Assembly (NCBI GenBank): GCA_950295325.1
Contig: OX485808.1
Span: forward strand, 5,460,501 to 5,524,500
DNA length: 64,000 bases
Direction of reading: 5' to 3'
Source of the DNA: Polytrichum commune
Taxonomy: Eukaryota > Streptophyta > Polytrichopsida > Polytrichales > Polytrichaceae
Below, piece by piece: positions 4,741-21,930 of the stretch (the stretch's first letter is position 1; the number at the start of each line of letters is the position of its first letter). The translations under genes were made by a program, and so were the position numbers. The notes under the pieces were generated by a model that saw nothing but the letters and a program-made list of their open reading frames with translations, ran no database searches and was not told the origin of the DNA.

Positions 4741-5863
4741 CTAGCATTGGAGATGCATTGAAGCCTTCCATGCTCAAGCCCATGTCCCTTTTGAACGTAC
4801 AAATATTAGTATGGCACTTGAGAGGCTTCGATGAGTGAAAGAGGCCTTGCATTTTGAAATTGTTGTACAAATCCTTCAAGTCGTTGAATTCATGCCCCAA
4901 CTCTAGTGGCTGTGATGGGTCTGCTTGTTTACAACACCCACGCTATGTCCAAAAATGTGGCATAACAAACACAAATGCAAATGTCATGGCTCCAAGTTGT
5001 TCCATTGTTGTGGTTTTTACAATGAATCGTGGCCTCAATTGGCGAGGCTTAGGGACCTGGATATGGTGGTTGGAGACATAATATAGGTCTCTCTCCCCCC
5101 TAACCTCTCTCCTCCCGTTATGTTGATTGACTTACACATATGTCCACATAGTCCACATGTTCTTTTGGTGTTTGTAAATCCACACCTAATTACCACACAC
5201 CATCCAAATACATGTGTCCAATTAAGATAGGTAACTGAATAAGGTCCACTCACCTTAGTGCCCCCATCTCACATTCCCCCCCATCTTAACCAATTATGCT
5301 CAAAAATCTCCCCAGACACACTCATGCTTCTTATGCAAGAGGTCATGGAAGATGTACCATATGTGCCCTAATGCACATTTAGTTTCAAACAGTGAGTCAT
5401 AATTCCTTTGAAATGCTTACTTTGGAATTTTTGAAACCTATTTCCTAAGTGCTGGCTTGAAATTATGAAATGAGAGTGAAGGTGTGAAATCTGATAGTCA
5501 TGTACTTCAAATTCGCATACTTAAAATGGATATTGCATTAGAAGGTCAAAAAATTTACATAGAACAAAGTTAACGCAATTTAGATCAAGAATAACAAGGA
5601 GATCACAGTTCAAGAAAAAGCAGAAGCAAAGTGTCAGATCGTCTAAACCCCTTGCCTAACTCTGTACTCCTGCCCTCCCTCTTGCACGGATACCAAATCT
5701 CTCCAAGTGTCTTTCCTAACAGCTACACTACTTGGGCACAATTGACATCAACAACCTTTGCAGTTAGAAGCTCCGCAACAATTGAACATCAATCAGAAAC
5801 TGGGTGTCATAAATGAACGTGCTTTCAAGAACCTCGATCCTCCAAGCATATATGTTGTAGAGG
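4741..5863. other. intergenic; one block shared with the gamma-CAL upstream region
   Basis: No gene recognised. A block at about 5029-5081 (TGGCGAGGCTTAGGGACCTGGAT core) closely matches 11276-11330 just upstream of the gamma-carbonic-anhydrase-like gene. A 16-bp direct repeat, TTCAAGAACCTCGATC, occurs at 5824-5839 and 5864-5879 at the left edge of the retrotransposon. Confidence 0.45.
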
Positions 5864-5867
5864 TTCA

Positions 5868-8800
5868 AGAACCTCGATCAACCTTCGCTGGCAACCATTT
5901 TGAAACAACACCCCCAATCACAATCAGCCGAGGGACAATCCAAGGTGACACACTTAGCCCCTACCTATTCATCTTCTTCTTAGAACCAATTCTAAGATGG
6001 CTAGAAAAAGATAACCTGGGCTATCATTTTAACACATCCCTATCCACATGTACCACCACCGCCTACGCAGACGACCTAGCAATCCTCACCGACAACATAA
6101 AACATATCCAACCTCAAATAAGTAAACTACAAAAATTTGCCGAATGGTCACATATGGACCTAAACCTATCCAAATGTGCCATTACGGGTTGCCCTAATAA
6201 ATCTAAACTTAAACCAAGCATCTTCAAAGCCTACATACAATCACAAAATATTACCTACAAATCCAACCCCTTCCCAACTCTCACACAAAACGAACCCTAC
6301 ATCTACCTAGGCATCCACCTAATGCCATTACTAAAATGGAATCTACAAAAAGAGATCACGCTACAAAAAGCCAAACAGCAATGCAAGCTACTTACCCTCT
6401 CACCAGCCAGCCTTAAACAAAAAATCCACATCCTAAATACAGTCATCAAACCCCGCATAGCATATGCATACTATGTAGTCCCATTCTCCAAACCGGATAT
6501 CAAAAAACTCGACAAACTAATTAGCAAACTAACCAAAGAAATATGCAATATACCCAAAAGCTCCGCTAACATTCTCACACATCTCCCACATGAAAATTTT
6601 GGCATCAACGTCACCTCCCTCCTACCTGACTATATACACTGCATAGGTCAACAACTCATACAAGCCCTCAACGACCCAGGCCAATTAGGCATTATATACC
6701 AAGGGCTAACAAAATACATCTCCGCCACATATGGTGGCTCACTACACCTCCCAAAACTTAAGCAACAAGCATGCTCCAGATCACCCATAGCTAGAACACT
6801 CTTCTTACTAGAAAGAGAATACGAAATACACGTCACCACCGCAAATCGAGCATTCCCCATCAGAAGCACCCCAATCGAACAAACATGGAAAAAAACCCCC
6901 ACGTACGCCACCCTCCCAGAAAATTCCAAAACAAAAATACAACGATACTTAGACAAATTATATACATATGGCATCACGACAATAGCACAAATCCAAAATC
7001 CGGATACCATGAACATACTAACACCGGAGGAATTCCGAGTTAGATACAAGCAAATACCTAAAACTATCAAAGAAGCACTACAACAAGCTAAATCATTATT
7101 CCCCACCCCATCGCTACCCACCACCCACATAACCCACCCCCAACCCCCACTACACACCCACACTAACACCACCCAACAAACAAACCCATCCACACGACCC
7201 GCCTTTGGATGCGAAATCCATACCATAATCAGCGACAAAATCACCACAAGAAAAGATAAATGGGGAGCACAAGCCATAAAAAGAGAATATCTATGCCAAT
7301 GGCGCAATATAACTGACACCATACAACATTGGCGCACGGAAGAGGAACTTCTACACCCGGACAACATCTTCCTAGATCATAACCTATTACTCATAAATCA
7401 ATATCACAAAACAAAGATAGAACACAAAAACACACAAACATATGAAGACTACTCTACATACTCCCAATCTAAAGACAACAAATTCATCCACCCCCCCCCC
7501 CTCGCAATCACAAACCTCACAATTGCCACACAAGAACGAAATCCCGACAAAGACATAATTACCAACAAGCCAACAATACAAATACAAGGCCCGTTGACCA
7601 ACATATACGACCAAAACGGAAATTACATCTCCACCCTTAACACCGATAGAATACAATGGCTATGGAACCAATTCTCCCAAAACCACCTCACACACCTAAC
7701 CACATTCTTACAACCGCCGCCACAAGACTTTGAAACTGAAATACTATGGCTAATACACAGATTCATTACCATACTCCCAAAGAAAAAACCAAAAAACATA
7801 CGGCCAACCAACTTACACCACACACTACACCCAGACATTACCAAACTACTAATCGAATCCCTCAAAATCACCCATGCATACTATTCATCCCCCCTCACAT
7901 GCCCCACCCAAATTACGCAATATAACTCACCCCACAACAGAGACATAATATTCGGTTCCATGGGACACACGAAATCCTCTAGATGGACGGGAATAGGCAT
8001 AGCCCACCCAAAATACCATAACTCGACCCTCGAAGCCATACACTGGGCCAAAATGGCCGCAAAAGAAAACCCCCAAACCATCACCATCCTCATTGTCAAC
8101 TATAAAGATTGGACCACACAACACTTGCCCATCAACGGACAAGTTGACATACACACAATAGCCACCATCCCACCACACACTATAAAATACGACCCCACAC
8201 CGGAATGGCCCAAATACTACCAATACACGGAGCCCGCCCTCACATCCATCATATGCATACATAACCAACCAAACCCTACTCAAAACCTCCAAACCCCACA
8301 CGAACTACACAATGTCCTCACGCGAACATTAAACACACACATAGATACCTACCCCATTACCCCCACACCAACACAATATAAAGTAAAATTCTCCACAGCA
8401 TGGCTAAATGCCCCCAAAATAAACCCACCTCTCATAAACCACAACACATCACACATTCCCACAAAATACCACCAAACATACCCACTAAAATTCCCCCCCC
8501 CACCAATGTATATACACGGATGGGCCATTTATCCCACCAACTACCAACTCCGAAGGAAACATAGAAGGTAACACCGCAGGCTCCGGCATATACAACCCTA
8601 ACAACAACATCCAAATATCAGAAAGACTCCCAGGCTACCAAAACATCCTTAGAGCAGAACTCAACGCCATACTTATAGCGGTTAAAACCATCCGCACCAC
8701 CAAGATAGACACACACATTTTTACAGACAGTCTCAACAATATATTCCTAATCAACAACCATATTAGACATCCGTCATCCCAACACATCACCCAGACAAAC

Positions 8801-9936
8801 TACTCATAGCCGCAATAATTCACCATATCTATTGGACACCACACAAAATACATATACACAAAGTAAGAGCACACTCGGGTATTTCCGGTAACGAAATCGC
8901 CGACACACTCGCCGTCAAAGGGAACCTCCTAGACAAACCAACCAAAACACCACACATACACATAGCGCACCAAACCCCATACTGGCTAGCCAACTGCCCC
9001 ACCGCCACACATGATGGAGCCATCCGAAACCTTCACACAATTATAACCAAAGAACATGGAATTCGGGAAACAACAACAACTAAACATAGATTCCCTTACG
9101 TAGATAAATGGCTATCAAACGACCAAATACACCACAAACTTTCTAACCACTTCTGGACAAATGATACAGTCACGGATGCACAAATATCCCAAACGTTAAA
9201 ATTTAGATACGCCCAATACATGGGCAACCACAGAAAAAACATCTTTTGGCCAAACACACACCAAAATCCCAACTGCACATTATGTCCCAAAAACGATCGA
9301 GACACATGGCCGCATCTTCTATCAATGTGTGAACACCCCTTCTTAAAGGGCCTACGCATATCCCGACACAACAAAGCCGTACACCTTATCACACAATTGC
9401 TACAAGCCAACAAAAACACCCGTTTCTATACACTAACTAACGCCGGTAAAAACAACAACAACCCCCCAGAACAAACAATCCCAGAATGGCTAATTAAATG
9501 TACATGCCCACAAACCCCTTGCCTATGCCAAGCCAAACTCAAACCAGACATCCTATGCATAATTGGTGCCCCAAATAATATGCAAACACCCATAGTTCCA
9601 TCCCCCACGACCATAATCCAATTTATAGAATTTACTTATTGCCACGACAGATTCCCCGAACAAGCCATTATACGCAAACACGCCAAACATGACCCACTCA
9701 TTAAAACTATACAAGACCTAGGGTGGAAAACCAACCCCCTAATTACCATTACTGCAGGAGTAAGAGGAGCCATTCACACCCACTCCATGGAAAAACTAGC
9801 CCACCTCCATATCCCAAAAAACAATATCAAATCACTCATGAAAAACCTACACATTAACGCCATTAAATACCTCACTTACCTCATACTAAACAAACGAAAA
9901 CTTGATAACAAACAATCACCGGTACCCATCACATAA
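5868..9936 (+). pseudogene. retrotransposon polyprotein: RT - unknown region - RNase H - CCHC - nuclease-like domain, two frameshifts
   Basis: One frame is open from the RT part to about 8571 and resumes from about 8785 to the stop at 9936. Between them the first half of RNase H is read one base out (frame 2), so two compensating indels flank it; the first probably lies in the C9 run at 8491-8499. RNase H keeps its catalytic signature: YTDG (8513), AELNAI (8654), FTDS (about 8720), HSGISGNEIAD (8868-8904). The zinc knuckle reads C-x2-C, then WPHLL, then C-x-H. After it come KPD (9541), an IEFTY block (about 9625) and an AKHDPLI block with ITAGVRG, spaced like the PD-(D/E)XK restriction-like endonuclease of R2-type elements; that reading is inference. 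About 700 residues between RT and RNase H are of unknown function. The RT lacks its N-terminal blocks, so the copy is dead as it stands. Confidence 0.8.
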
Positions 9937-9983
9937 AAGGAACTTGGCTAGTACCAAAGAGCCCACCCCTACGGGGGCATAAG

Positions 9984-10061
9984 TCTAGTGCTGCATCACG
10001 GTAAACCGTGATCAACACTAGATCAACGGGCTCAAATTCACGCCGGTATTTGATACGGGCG
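9984..10061 (+). other. two stem-loops in the retrotransposon 3' tail
   Basis: Hairpin 1 (9984-10022) pairs TCTAGTG with CACTAGA and, inside, ATCACGG with CCGTGAT around a TAAA loop. Hairpin 2 (10041-10061) pairs CGCC-GTAT with ATAC-GGCG around TTG, with one G-G mismatch. They directly follow the polyprotein stop. Structured 3' ends are recognised by the reverse transcriptase in several non-LTR clades, so a role in priming is likely but inferred. Confidence 0.6.
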
Positions 10062-10388
10062 TTCACTTTTCTTTTCTTTCTAGAGGTCTTATGCATCTCT
10101 ACAACATCTGGAGATCCGAAGCCTCACATGGTAGATCGCCAAAGTCCAAGATCCTCACCCCCTGCAAATTACTCAAACTTGCACAAGTCCTAGATGGCAA
10201 TCAAATCATGTAGTCCTTGATCATGAACTCACAATTCACATTCCCTTCTTTCTTCTTTTTTCCCCTACGTACCTTTCTCTACATTGGAGACTAGTGACAA
10301 GGCAATCTAAACCATCACATCACCACATAAGATAAGAAAGGACTTCAAGAGTTCTTACAGTCTTTGATATGTGGTTCTTACACGCCCC

Positions 10389-10432
10389 CTAAACCATAAA
10401 CCCTAACCCTAACCCTAAACACTAAACCCTAA
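10389..10432 (+). repeat. interstitial telomere-like repeat
   Basis: About five to six units of CCCTAAA/CCCTAA, the C-rich strand of the Arabidopsis-type plant telomere repeat, with minor variants (AACCATAAACCC, AACACTAAACCC). It lies about 330 bp beyond the retrotransposon tail and next to an inverted fragment of the MITE family described at 10741. Confidence 0.75.
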
Positions 10433-10585
10433 TCCACCCAAATCCTCAACCATGAGGTTGTTTCCTTGGTGATATGTGATGGAAATGTGACAACACGGAG
10501 GGAGATATGAATTGAGCACATCCGTTCCCTAGGATTTGGGGATATAAGAGAGGGAGTGACATTACAGAGGTTAGGGTGTATTTGG
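10433..10585 (-). repeat. inverted partial copy of the TA-flanked MITE
   Basis: Reading the minus strand from 10583 downward gives TACACCCTAACCTCTGTAAT, then TCTCTTATAT, CCTAGGGAACGGATG, the same order as the 5' end of the element at 10741-11175. The fragment therefore lies head to head with that copy, separated by about 155 bp. The far end is degraded. Confidence 0.6.
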
Positions 10586-10740: not shown

Positions 10741-11175
10741 CACCCTAAACTCCGTAATACCAACATCCATAATGTCACTCGCTCTCTAACATCCCAAAAC
10801 CATAGGGAACGGATGTTAGATTCTCACTCCTTATTGTCACTTTCTCTCCCTTATATCATGAATTTTGTCATTACCAAAGAAGTCAACCCACACCCTCACA
10901 TTGCGCCATGTGTCAATATGTGGAGTGTCACCCTCTTCTTCTTCTTCTTCTTATGCCACTTGTTGAATGTTGGTGCATGCATATGCCACATCGCCCGGGT
11001 AGGCCAAGTGGAGTGGACCACACCACATCATTAAAATGTTGCACTTTGTGTTATTCCATAATGTCACATGTTACATTAATTCTATAGTATCACACATCCA
11101 TGTTAACACTACCAAACTCTGTAATATCACGTGCACTTTGGTCGCCACATGTGCGATACTACGGAGTTTAGAGTG
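10741..11175 (+). mobile_element. TA-flanked MITE (Tc1/mariner-like), copy 1
   Basis: Terminal inverted repeats CACCCTAAACTCCGTAATA (left) and GATACTACGGAGTTTAGAGTG (right) bound a 435-bp element flanked by TA dinucleotides (10739-10740, 11176-11177). A second copy with the same ends and interior (CTAGGGAACGGATG, CATTGCGCCATGTGTC, ATATCACGTGCACTTTGG) is at 56871-57334. No transposase is encoded. The right end is only 238 bp upstream of the gamma-CAL start codon, so this MITE supplies much of that gene's 5' flank. Confidence 0.8.
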
Positions 11176-11412
11176 TATAATATATATGATAATTCCCTTT
11201 CACTCCCCCCCACCCCATGACATGAGCATTTCAATTCCGAGCCACAGGACCTCGAATGGGACCTGAATGAGAACTCTCGGGACCTCAACTTGGCGAGTCT
11301 TAGGGACCTGGATGCGAAGGTCGGAGACGGGGATGGAGGCACACGGAGTCGGAGACGGGGACGCAGACAAGACGCCGGAGCCATTGCGAGAAGAGCTTCG
11401 TCGACCGCAGCC

Positions 11413-12159
11413 ATGGCCATGGCGCTCCGCTCCCCCGCAGGCCGCAAGCTCCTGCACTCACTCCTCCTACGATCCACTTCCTCATCTCCCTCTGTCTCTC
11501 CAGCTGCACATCCCATTCGCACTTCCTCAACCGCTCAACACACGGAATGGGATTACAGGGGGCAACGACAGATCCTCCCCGTAGGGCACAGGGTCCCAAT
11601 AGTGGCCGTAGACGCCTGGGTGGCGCCTAACGCACTCCTCGCAGGGGCCGTAGACATTCAGGACCGTGCAACGGTGTGGCACGGCGCAATCCTTCGCGGA
11701 GACTTGAACCGCATTGTATTAGGGTTTTCATCAAGCGTGGGGGACAAGTGTGTGCTCCATGCAGCGAGCACAGCTCCTACGGGGCTATCCGCCGAGACTT
11801 TGATCGGGAAGTACTGCACCATAGGAGCTTATAGTATTTTGAGATCATGCACAGTGGAGGATGAGGCCGTGGTGGGATCCAGATGTGTGTTGATGGAAGG
11901 GTCCCTCGTGGAGATGAACTCCATGCTGGGATCGGGGTCTGTTTTGCCTCCTGGAAGACGTGTTCCCGCTGGGGAGCTTTGGGCTGGTAACCCTGCAAGG
12001 TTTGTCAGGCTTCTGACTGCTGACGAGATTGTGGCCATCCCTAAGCTGGCGCAGGACATCCGGGAGCTTGCGCAAGAACATGCGGATGAGTTTTTGCCAT
12101 ACAGCACTGCTTACTTGGAAGTGGAGAAGCTGCGGGCCAGTCACAAATTATCAGCGTAA
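11413..12159 (+). CDS. gamma-carbonic-anhydrase-like protein (mitochondrial complex I subunit)
   Basis: 248 residues, no intron. The N-terminus (MAMALRSPAGRKLLHSLLLR) is Ala/Arg/Ser-rich like a mitochondrial presequence; after about 40 residues the conserved body begins at EWDYRGQRQILPVG, close to plant gamma-CAL1/2. Left-handed beta-helix hexapeptides follow (VWHGAILRGDLN, LIGKYCTIGAYSILRSCTV, LMEGSLVEMNSMLG), then GELWAGNPARFVR and the C-terminal helix FLPYSTAYLEVEK. Of the zinc ligands in true gamma-CAs, the first His is kept (CVLHAA), but the pair in the VGHSxxLHG block is replaced by GAYSILRS, so this is the non-catalytic CAL type. In plants these proteins form the heterotrimeric matrix-facing carbonic anhydrase domain of complex I. 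The open frame runs in-phase from 11290, but the Met at 11413 fits the family length and presequence best. Confidence 0.93.
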   Translation: MAMALRSPAGRKLLHSLLLRSTSSSPSVSPAAHPIRTSSTAQHTEWDYRGQRQILPVGHRVPIVAVDAWVAPNALLAGAVDIQDRATVWHGAILRGDLNRIVLGFSSSVGDKCVLHAASTAPTGLSAETLIGKYCTIGAYSILRSCTVEDEAVVGSRCVLMEGSLVEMNSMLGSGSVLPPGRRVPAGELWAGNPARFVRLLTADEIVAIPKLAQDIRELAQEHADEFLPYSTAYLEVEKLRASHKLSA

Positions 12160-19769: not shown

Positions 19770-21930
19770 TTACCCCTTGGAGATTCGGGTGCGGTAACCG
19801 GTTGGGCAGTGTCGATGCCTGCCCCGAATCCTTATGCCTCCTTTTCTCCTTCGGAAGCCTCTCTTGCAATGTCTGTGCCTCCGGTACCTGCGTCTGCTGG
19901 CCATGGATCTACGGCGACGGTGGTGCTTGCTGCGAAGACGTCTGCGGCGTCCCCTCCTCCTATGGTGTCGTCGTCTTCGGTGTCGCGACCTTCGTGTCCT
20001 GCGTCGGTGGTGTCGCCGTCTGTGGTGTCCTCTTCTACGGCGATGGTGCCGCCTCGAGCTCCGTCTTCGTATGTATTGATGATGTAAGCTTATGCCATCG
20101 CTGCAAGAGCAGCACATATATGCACGAAGTCAAGTTACATGACTTATGAGTCCTACAAACCGAAAACGGAGTTTCTTCCCAGTTTCTTGGTTGTTCGAAC
20201 TCCTGGTGGTATTCTTGTCCAGCAGGAGCGCAGGATTGCTGGATTGTTATAGTTTGACTGAAGGCTTTAATCTACTGTGTCAAGTTTCACTGCCTGATTC
20301 CTTTGTACATGTTACTCTAATCGTAATGCAATGCTGTACACAAGAATTTAACATGCCTGATAGCTTAGTGCGGAGTTAATCTCTTACTCATAAAATTCTT
20401 TTAAGAATTTTAATGACAATGTGCACAACCAAAGGAGCTCGGTGAATGACACGGGTGCGTATTGTCAGGTTTCAGAGCTCAAACCTGAAGACTCTTATTC
20501 GGAATTTGGAGTTGACGGAACAAAAGGAGATCAAAGTGACGTTCACGTTTTGAAATTTCTACTACAATGGGAGCAGGATTTGGAGAACATGCAGGGGTTT
20601 TAAGGTTCAGGTTTCAACTCTGTAACCTACTAACAATTTTGCGTGTGAGGACATCGAGTAGTTCATTCATTTTAAGACGAATACTCTCCTTCCACCGAGT
20701 TTCCATTGCAGATCACGAGCGAACAACCAAGAGGATTTTGATGCAGTAACTTGTTTCAGCTGTAGAAAGACTTCGCCTGCGCTGATCGATCGACATATTG
20801 GAAATGCATGCATGCACTAACCTAGACTAAAGGATTTGAACAAACAGGTGCTAACTTGTACTTAACGTATACTACATGTTCTAATTTATACAGTTTGGAA
20901 GTGTGGAGGATACCTAGTTAGTGCATTAACAGGCCTGTGATACTTTCGGCACTTTTTTACACATCAACCAAAAGAATTTATATAGATGCAGTTTCTTGGA
21001 GCTGTGAAGACTTCACCTGCGGCTGATCGATCGAGATGCCGGAAATTCATGTATGCACCGACCTAGAGACTCAACGGTTTGAACAATGGGATACTAACTA
21101 TACTTTGATGCTGTCAAACTAAATGCTCTACTTCATCGGGCTTGAAATTGCGGAGGAGACCTGCTCCGTACATACGTGCCTGTAATACGTTCCGCACTAA
21201 ATTTTATACATCAACCAAGATAATTTCTTTAGATGCAGTTTCTTTGAGCCATAGAGGCTGCACCTGCGGCTGATCGATCGAGACCATGTTGAAATGGATG
21301 CATGCACTGACCTAGAAACTCAAGGGTTTGAACAATCAGGTTCTGACTTGCACTGAGTTTAATACTGAACTACTATATGCTCTAATTCGTAAGGTTTGAA
21401 ATTGTGGAGGAGACCTACTCAGTGCATTACATGCCTGTAGCACTCTCCGCACTTTGTTAACACCCACCAAGAGAATTTCTTAGATGCAATTTCTTTGAGC
21501 TGTAGAGACTTCACCTGAGGCTGATCGATCGACATGTTGGAATTACATGCATGCACTAACCTAGAGACTCAAGGGTTCCAACAATGAGGTACTAACTTAT
21601 ACTGACTTTGGTACTGTCAAACTACACGCTCTAGTTCATAGGGTTAATTTGAAGTGTGGAGGAGACCTACTCAGTGCAAACAGGCCTGTACAATTTTCCG
21701 CACTTTGTTACACATTTCTTACGAATCAGGTGGCGGAGGGCGTGGCGAACTTTCCTGTGGTGTGCTAGAGGGTCGACACCGCGGCCTTTGTAGTAAGAAA
21801 TTATCTTACTTGCAATTTCCTTCAGCGTTCCGCCTCGCCGTTTCTTAAGGTAGCACAGGGCCGTCTGGACCATGCGCGCGTACTTCGGGTGTCGGCTCCG
21901 CCGCCGTCTACATGATCTCCGTCGAGCCAT
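19770..21930 (-). CDS. H1-domain protamine-like protein 1 (two exons)
   Basis: Proposed exons 21671-21930 and 19770-20100, predicted 196 residues. Exon 1 is a minimal linker-histone domain: a basic start (MARRRSCRRRRSR), then HPKYARMVQTALCYLKKRRG, TLKEIASKII and VRHALRHLIRKKCVTKCGKLY, in the order of a winged-helix H15 fold. The frame can stop at 21667, but a GTAGGT donor just before it and a strong acceptor (CTGCTCTTGCAG) at 20101 join in phase and add about 110 residues that are mostly Arg and His (RRRRHHRRRG-type runs, with CKRGFRRRKGG near the end). The second H1/protamine gene at 54824 has the same globular-domain-plus-tail plan in one exon, which supports the join. Probable role: sperm chromatin condensation, by analogy with liverwort protamines reported to be cut from H1-like precursors. 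Exon 1 is confident; exon 2 is an inference, and its opposite strand is also open. Confidence 0.65.
20720..21712. repeat. intronic tandem array built from decayed exon 1 copies
   Basis: Four units of 241-251 bp, anchored by GCTGATCGATCGA at 20781, 21022, 21269 and 21520, lie inside the intron of H1/protamine gene 1. Read on the minus strand, each holds a piece similar to exon 1: the unit ending near 21416 reads LKEIASK, then directly TKCGECYRHVMH, that is, the coding sequence with its middle deleted. Each also carries the exon 1 donor region or a mutated version (GAGTAGGT, GAGCAGGT, CTAACTAGGT). The fifth, intact member is exon 1 itself. Units further from exon 1 are more degraded. Confidence 0.8.

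Follow-up and report, generated by a model that had tools for sequence, protein, structure and literature searches.

The stretch of DNA analysed here (the window) comprises 64,000 nucleotides of Polytrichum commune (GenBank assembly GCA_950295325.1, contig OX485808.1, positions 5,460,501 to 5,524,500 of the forward strand). Positions 5881 to 10080 of its plus strand hold a copy of a non-long terminal repeat (non-LTR) retrotransposon, a long interspersed element (LINE), which is 5'-truncated and frame-broken, begins inside the reverse transcriptase (RT) and ends in a 3' tail. The start was set by alignment to a sibling copy, L051 (96% identity), and the 3' end, at about 10080 and beyond the open reading frame (ORF), by comparing 16 copies; the limits of 5868 to 9936 given in an initial annotation of this DNA are therefore corrected to 5881 to 10080. 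Judged from the sequences of the window copy and its relatives, the truncated copy very probably belongs to a large land-plant LINE of Dualen/RandI-like type that has probably been active in recent times, because an apurinic/apyrimidinic-type endonuclease (APE), an RT, an RNase H and a restriction-like endonuclease (RLE) are present as a set. The features of the copy, including its putative target site duplication (TSD) and its 3' untranslated region (UTR), are as follows.

5881..10080 (+): dual-endonuclease LINE copy, truncated and frame-broken (alignment to sibling L051; 3' comparison of 16 copies)
5881..6780, right limit approximate (+): C-terminal part of the RT with thumb/linker, YADD at 6064-6075 (Pfam RVT_1, E 1.1e-15; sequence)
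7216..7356 (+): chromodomain-like stretch, weak (Pfam Chromo, E 0.0056, 17.0 bits against a cut-off of 25.1)
7729..8109 (+): PCIF1-like domain, with AHPKY at the NPPF position (PF12237, E 2e-6, 27.9 bits against a cut-off of 31.1)
8507..8922 (+): RNase H, split over frames (Pfam RNase_H, E 6.6e-6 and 3.5e-5)
9274..9330 (+): zinc knuckle C-x2-C-x9-H-x4-C (Cys and His invariant in 14/14 copies)
9364..9840 (+): predicted R2-type RLE (profile-profile match to the R2 RLE; R2 model matches relatives; conservation)
RLE motifs (+): RHN (9364), KPD (9541-9549), IEF (9625-9633), K (9676-9678), GVRG (9757-9768)
9959..10062 (+): predicted 3' UTR RNA structure, an outer stem around two hairpins followed by a terminal hairpin (covariation, 16 copies, 14 distinct)
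10063..10080 (+): (TTTTC)n simple-repeat 3' tail (copies diverge directly after it)
5858..5864 (+): candidate 5' TSD copy TAGAGGT, 7 bp (marginal; 37/500 shuffles as long)
5865-5880 (+): filler of 16 nt after the candidate 5' TSD copy
10081..10087 (+): candidate 3' TSD copy (marginal)

The coding frame of the window copy shifts near 8500-8540 and again near 8785, so that its RNase H is spread over frames and is matched by Pfam in two pieces. The YADD block, the RNase H, the CX2C...HX4C knuckle and the C-terminal KPD, IEFTY, AKHDPLI and ITAGVRG that the initial annotation had reported are all present. It had missed the match to PCIF1_WW at 7729-8109 (E 2e-6 to 3.1e-6, below the curated cut-off) as well as the weak chromodomain-like stretch. 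In the Pfam scan of the window copy, no match was found in the last 171 residues.

When the C-terminal protein was searched against the 407.8-Mb genome, 106 candidates were scored out of 7331 seen at first look. All 106, the window copy included, match this protein with an identity of at least 73%, and the matched stretch is free of stops in 73 of them by hand count, which argues that the element in the window is not a chance product. These 106 copies sit on seven chromosome-size contigs, which argues against contamination. Contig C8 (146,561 bp) bears chlL, a gene not known from angiosperm plastids, together with rpoA and two neighbouring genes of the psaA/psaB family. The psaB of this contig scored highest against the moss photosystem I structures 7ksq, 6l35 and 8htu (1671.8 bits), followed by 1634, about 1600 and about 1514 bits for seed plants and green algae, so that by its plastid genes the host is a non-angiosperm embryophyte, most likely a bryophyte. 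The fuller copies that the initial annotation had proposed to look for were found, and they carry an ORF1, a 2A-like motif and an APE 5' of the RT. Five fetched copies (L013-L017) have open frames of 2123-2422 amino acids, though not without flaws: some 49 codons are missing from the RT region of L014, L016 is interrupted ahead of the RLE, and L013 and L017 have the 2A-like motif out of frame. In the four long-frame proteins scanned, APE, RVT_1, RNase_H and PCIF1_WW were found without exception, the last of these below its cut-off and the APE, which the truncated window copy itself does not have, as Exo_endo_phos or Exo_endo_phos_2 above cut-off. A second family group (L018-L041, L050) has frames of up to 2924 amino acids and an unchanged domain order, and its PCIF1-like stretch is 35-39% identical to that of the window copy. 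The order in ORF2 is 2A-like motif, APE, RT, (chromodomain-like stretch), PCIF1-like domain, RNase H, zinc knuckle and R2-type RLE. ORF1 lies upstream in five of the six loci examined (L014-L017 and L050); apart from the near-identical pair L015/L016, the ORF1 products are 25-77% identical to one another, and no convincing Pfam match was found for them. From NCBIfam, only models of RT, exonuclease III-type and RNase H proteins came up, none of which reached its cut-off, and 30 pattern matches in viral contigs yielded no confirmed relative.

The C-terminal nuclease proposed in the initial annotation to follow the RNase H was borne out by profile comparison. Among 14 aligned copies the zinc knuckle, RH(N/D), RPD/KPD, IEFTY, the following lysines and GxRG are kept, the D of RPD/KPD in 13 of the 14; in the second family the last RLE motif is GARA. 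A hidden Markov model (HMM) built from three R2 RLE sequences taken from PDB records matches the four long-frame proteins that keep the region with E values of 3e-4 to 2.3e-3 (13.7-16.5 bits), the best score among 1000 shuffles of last-260-residue stretches being 6.3 bits. In the reverse direction, an HMM of the element RLE gave R2Bm 12.5 bits, against 10.1 for the best of 2000 shuffles. Alignment with hhalign of the element RLE, both families taken together, to the R2 RLE scored 37.9 over 132 columns, the highest of 300 column-permuted controls being 22.1 and the reversed control 13.6. By these profile comparisons, about 200 residues at the C-terminus share homology with the RLE of R2.

Analysis of the RT likewise pointed to R2, which is the best match among solved structures. 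A profile of four copies scored 131.7, 113.4, 112.9, 82.9 and 79.0 bits against R2 sequences and 76.7 bits against human L1, while an L1 from the same genome, in a single-sequence search, showed the reverse (human L1 171 bits, R2 at most 74). The RT phylogeny that the initial annotation had suggested as a check was built by maximum likelihood from 16 rows (seven element, four L1, three R2 and two group II), a sampling without RTE, I and CR1 for which the program warned of long branches. The element forms one group with a support of 100/100, L1 is supported at 93/89 and R2 at 95/96, and a placement of the element inside plant L1 was rejected (p-AU 0.0037). Within this tree of element, L1, R2 and group II sequences, the RT thus lies outside plant L1.

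The PCIF1-like domain is matched by PF12237 in all 13 segments taken from both families (A4), with a best E value of 1.7e-12. In a genome search with PF12237, all 150 places scored, out of 697 candidates, were above the cut-off of 31.1 bits, and 24 of these 150 were examined as sequence; the window copy (27.9) and the four scanned proteins of family 1 fall below it. The second of two PDB alignments sets the catalytic NPPF opposite the A(H/F)P motif of the element. At 37 distinct places, neither NPP nor DPP occurs within 34 residues of FGSxG; another five loci had no readable site, in two cases because the fetched DNA excludes the stretch. Because NPPF is replaced at all 37 places, methyl transfer has probably been lost while a PCIF1-like fold is probably kept, and the domain may instead bind RNA or a cap. 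Compared with PCIF1/CAPAM, the cap-adenosine N6-methyltransferase, the element shares a homologous stretch that includes FGSxG and the NPPF position; it differs in the replacement of NPPF and in that the domain lies inside a retrotransposon polyprotein. Among the matches listed in the literature searched, none was a PCIF1 retroelement.

NPGP was found at the N-terminus in all nine relatives examined, and the full D(I/V)ExNPGP, at its best as GDIETNPGP, in five of them (L014, L017, L041, L050 and L051); in L013, L015, L016 and L040, NPGP is kept and the E is lost. The 2A-like motif is out of frame with the long ORF in L013 and L017. L051 (G000:C2:36080500-36085600) has a pair of 2A-like motifs within a single open frame, as if a second copy had gone in close to the beginning of the first, and L016 likewise carries two. 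The motif resembles the 2A (StopGo) sequences that non-LTR elements of animals and protists carry; it differs in having a land plant as its host. A 2026 survey of viral sequences reported, in the part of it that was accessible, no natural StopGo use by plant viruses (PMC12846837).

Within family 1, dN/dS was 0.055-0.115 for the RLE, 0.128-0.230 for the PCIF1-like domain and 0.040-0.087 for the RNase H, 0.103-0.173 for the APE and 0.096-0.195 for the chromodomain-like stretch (5/6 pairs each), and 0.036-0.079 for the RT (computable for 3/6 pairs), all of these values being rough since dS was often >1 or saturated. Hence, each domain has a dN/dS well below 1 within this family as estimated from these alignments, and the values for the PCIF1-like domain suggest that it matters to the element. 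Between families, the dN/dS of the chromodomain-like stretch reaches 0.72.

At the 3' end, a structure of 103-109 nt is common to 16 copies. Across the 14 distinct rows, 97.3% of cells are paired and 11 of 35 pairs show double changes. The covariation score, for a structure predicted from the same alignment, was 0.261 against 0.147 in shuffles (0/500 as high) and at most 0.105 with partners slid; a measure of further pair types did not exceed the shuffles (496/500 as high). The second family (L040, L041) has the same layout of the fold in different letters and a (CTAT)n tail, so that element tails are (TTTTC)n or (CTAT)n and not poly(A). Rfam gave nothing on three long loci and the window. Candidate TSDs of 7-15 bp were seen in the seven copies examined, the window copy included, and in five of these, L057 included, they are longer than shuffles would lead one to expect (0 to 3 of 500 as long). 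The pair L015/L016, whose 3' flanks differ, shows 99.2% identity along 8.8 kb, which suggests recent movement, and the family has probably been active recently. A short interspersed element (SINE) sharing the 3' end was considered and rejected, as eight 3'-UTR loci share no head beyond the element and resemble 5'-truncated copies; TSDs were sought in six of these eight, with L060 and L061 excluded because their 5' end was unfetched or unclear.

Further features were seen in the DNA around the copy. The sequences flanking the insertion, 5852-5867 and 10092-10107, form an inverted repeat, and the target may therefore have been palindromic. At the 5' junction, 16 nt (5864-5879) repeat the upstream flank at 5824-5839. 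A telomere-like (CCCTAAA)6.9 array lies at 10387-10432, about 300 bp past the 3' tail, and is followed by a 55-nt inverted repeat (10518-10572 and 10762-10816, 84% complementary, 189 nt apart) that resembles a foldback or miniature inverted-repeat transposable element type. A single intronless open frame of 312 amino acids at 11221-12159 (+) presumably encodes a protein like the plant mitochondrial gamma-carbonic anhydrases, and a tandem array with a 249-bp unit in 3.9 copies occupies 20754-21715.

Dualen is reportedly due to Kojima and Fujiwara (2005). According to the accessible parts of the papers concerned, Dualen encodes both APE and RLE, and RNase H is given for Dualen/RandI (PMC4640811); the group is tabulated for green algae only (PMC4438587) and reported in Chlamydomonas and its relatives (PMC8226300), and LINE/Dualen repeat annotations exist in cryptophytes (PMC12747079). 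Table 3 of PMC3747384 gives simple-repeat ends for all 8 RandI families of green algae, and poly(A) for 224 of the 233 L1 families of flowering plants. Among the matches listed in the literature searched, which leaves out most subscription papers, no Dualen, RandI or other RLE element of a land plant was seen. With Dualen/RandI, as known from published description and not from sequence, the element shares an APE and an RLE in one element, an RNase H and a simple-repeat 3' tail; it differs in its land plant host. The accessible descriptions of Dualen mention no PCIF1-like domain, no 2A-like motif and no chromodomain-like stretch, and the first two of these set the element apart from Dualen/RandI as there described.

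R2 elements, which insert into ribosomal DNA, are not known to have an APE or an RNase H. The element resembles them in its best RT match and in a zinc knuckle followed by an RLE with RH(N/D), RPD, an acidic residue, K and GxRG, and differs from them in its RNase H and its APE, a sole RLE being the mark of R2, and in flanks that vary between copies and carry duplications of 7-15 bp. Plant L1 elements have an N-terminal APE and target duplications and are not known to carry an RLE. The element resembles them in the first two of these, and L1s are present in the same genome; in L047, GDFN can be seen in a stretch at the N-terminus. The element differs from them in that its RT clusters apart and that it ends in a simple repeat where L1 has poly(A).

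Several results weigh against reading the family as one with two nucleases and captured domains. For the RLE, the HMM of the element gave two other R2 sequences 8.2 and 6.6 bits, under the best shuffle; the hhalign probability was 75-82%, not near 100; no Pfam model covers the region; PDB searches returned no match with the C-terminal protein alone and RNase H only, without R2, with profile A1; and AlphaFold run without an alignment on two window segments gave a pLDDT of 33 (RLE) and 34, so low that the models were not used. The saturated dS noted above weakens the selection estimates. In a comparison of a 13-row profile with the PDB, the two top-ranking sequences were PCIF1, at the weak E values of 0.02 and 0.23; the profile of the family 1 PCIF1 region (A3) found no match there. 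Chromo was listed in four of seven segments, the window copy having the best score and the three other listed segments being worse, and was unlisted in the remaining three; it was below the cut-off throughout. In the RT tree, no branching order among R2, L1 and the element is firmly supported (element with R2, support 72/52), and neither the element with all L1 (p 0.169) nor R2 with L1 (p 0.328) was rejected. Finally, the 7-bp TSDs of L056 and the window copy fall within the shuffle range (54 and 37 of 500), and that of L057 is ambiguous, not clearly adjoining the junction.

Could the copy then be an ordinary plant L1 (or RTE) with a C-terminus that merely looks like a nuclease? Some plant L1s carry a C-terminal zinc knuckle. 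Copies of the L1-type zf-RVT abound in the genome (141 of the 150 candidates scored; 322 at first look), and RNase H occurs in some plant L1s (PMC5348765). However, the RT is closer to R2 than to L1 and its position inside plant L1 is rejected by the tree of element, L1, R2 and group II sequences, the tail is a simple repeat instead of poly(A) and the RLE appears homologous to that of R2, so that this explanation is very unlikely. Still less credible is a nested or chimeric copy in which the RLE or the PCIF1-like domain came by chance from another element downstream. The broken frame of the window copy would fit it, as would the paired 2A-like motifs of L016 and L051, which are as expected after nesting or duplication of a 5' end; the same order nevertheless recurs in the second family and in single open frames of 2123-2924 amino acids, and every part has a dN/dS well below 1 within family 1. 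A nested or chimeric origin was rejected on this recurrent domain order and selection.

The proposal in the initial annotation of a Dualen-like or new land-plant clade is upheld by an APE (in 4/4 relatives), an RNase H and an RLE that occur together outside plant L1. Whether the element truly belongs to the Dualen/RandI clade of algae is finely balanced; on that view it would have come down from the common ancestor of green plants or passed over from an alga, and its extra domains might have been overlooked in algal members. The same pair of nucleases with RNase H, the simple-repeat 3' ends shared with the green algal RandI families in the accessible part of PMC3747384 and an RT closer to the RLE-bearing R2 than to human L1 speak for such membership; set against it are a likeness to Dualen that is by description only and the PCIF1-like domain and 2A motif that the accessible descriptions do not include. 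A more elaborate proposal can be put forward tentatively, as possible though somewhat doubtful, namely a new dual-endonuclease clade of land plants in which a captured PCIF1 fold with its chemistry disabled would hold the element's own capped RNA end during integration, and in which 2A skipping would occur naturally in a plant.

For a Dualen/RandI-like LINE of this kind, integration would proceed by target-primed reverse transcription. One nuclease would nick the target, whose A-rich 3' end could pair with the U-rich tail of the RNA, and the RT may recognize the 3' RNA structure and copy from the paired end. RNase H would then remove the RNA, and the other nuclease, at a guess the RLE, would cut the second strand 7-15 bp away. 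During translation, the 2A motif could split off the N-terminal stretch of ORF2. The PCIF1-like domain, being without its catalytic motif, may bind RNA rather than methylate it, possibly at the element's own capped 5' end.

Dual-nuclease LINEs have been proposed to connect the retrotransposons of RLE type with those of APE type (PMC4640811). With a family so abundant, and probably active in the recent past, in a multicellular plant, it would become possible to test how the two nucleases share the work. The family also puts a PCIF1-fold domain and a 2A-like motif, as predicted here, into a plant retroelement.

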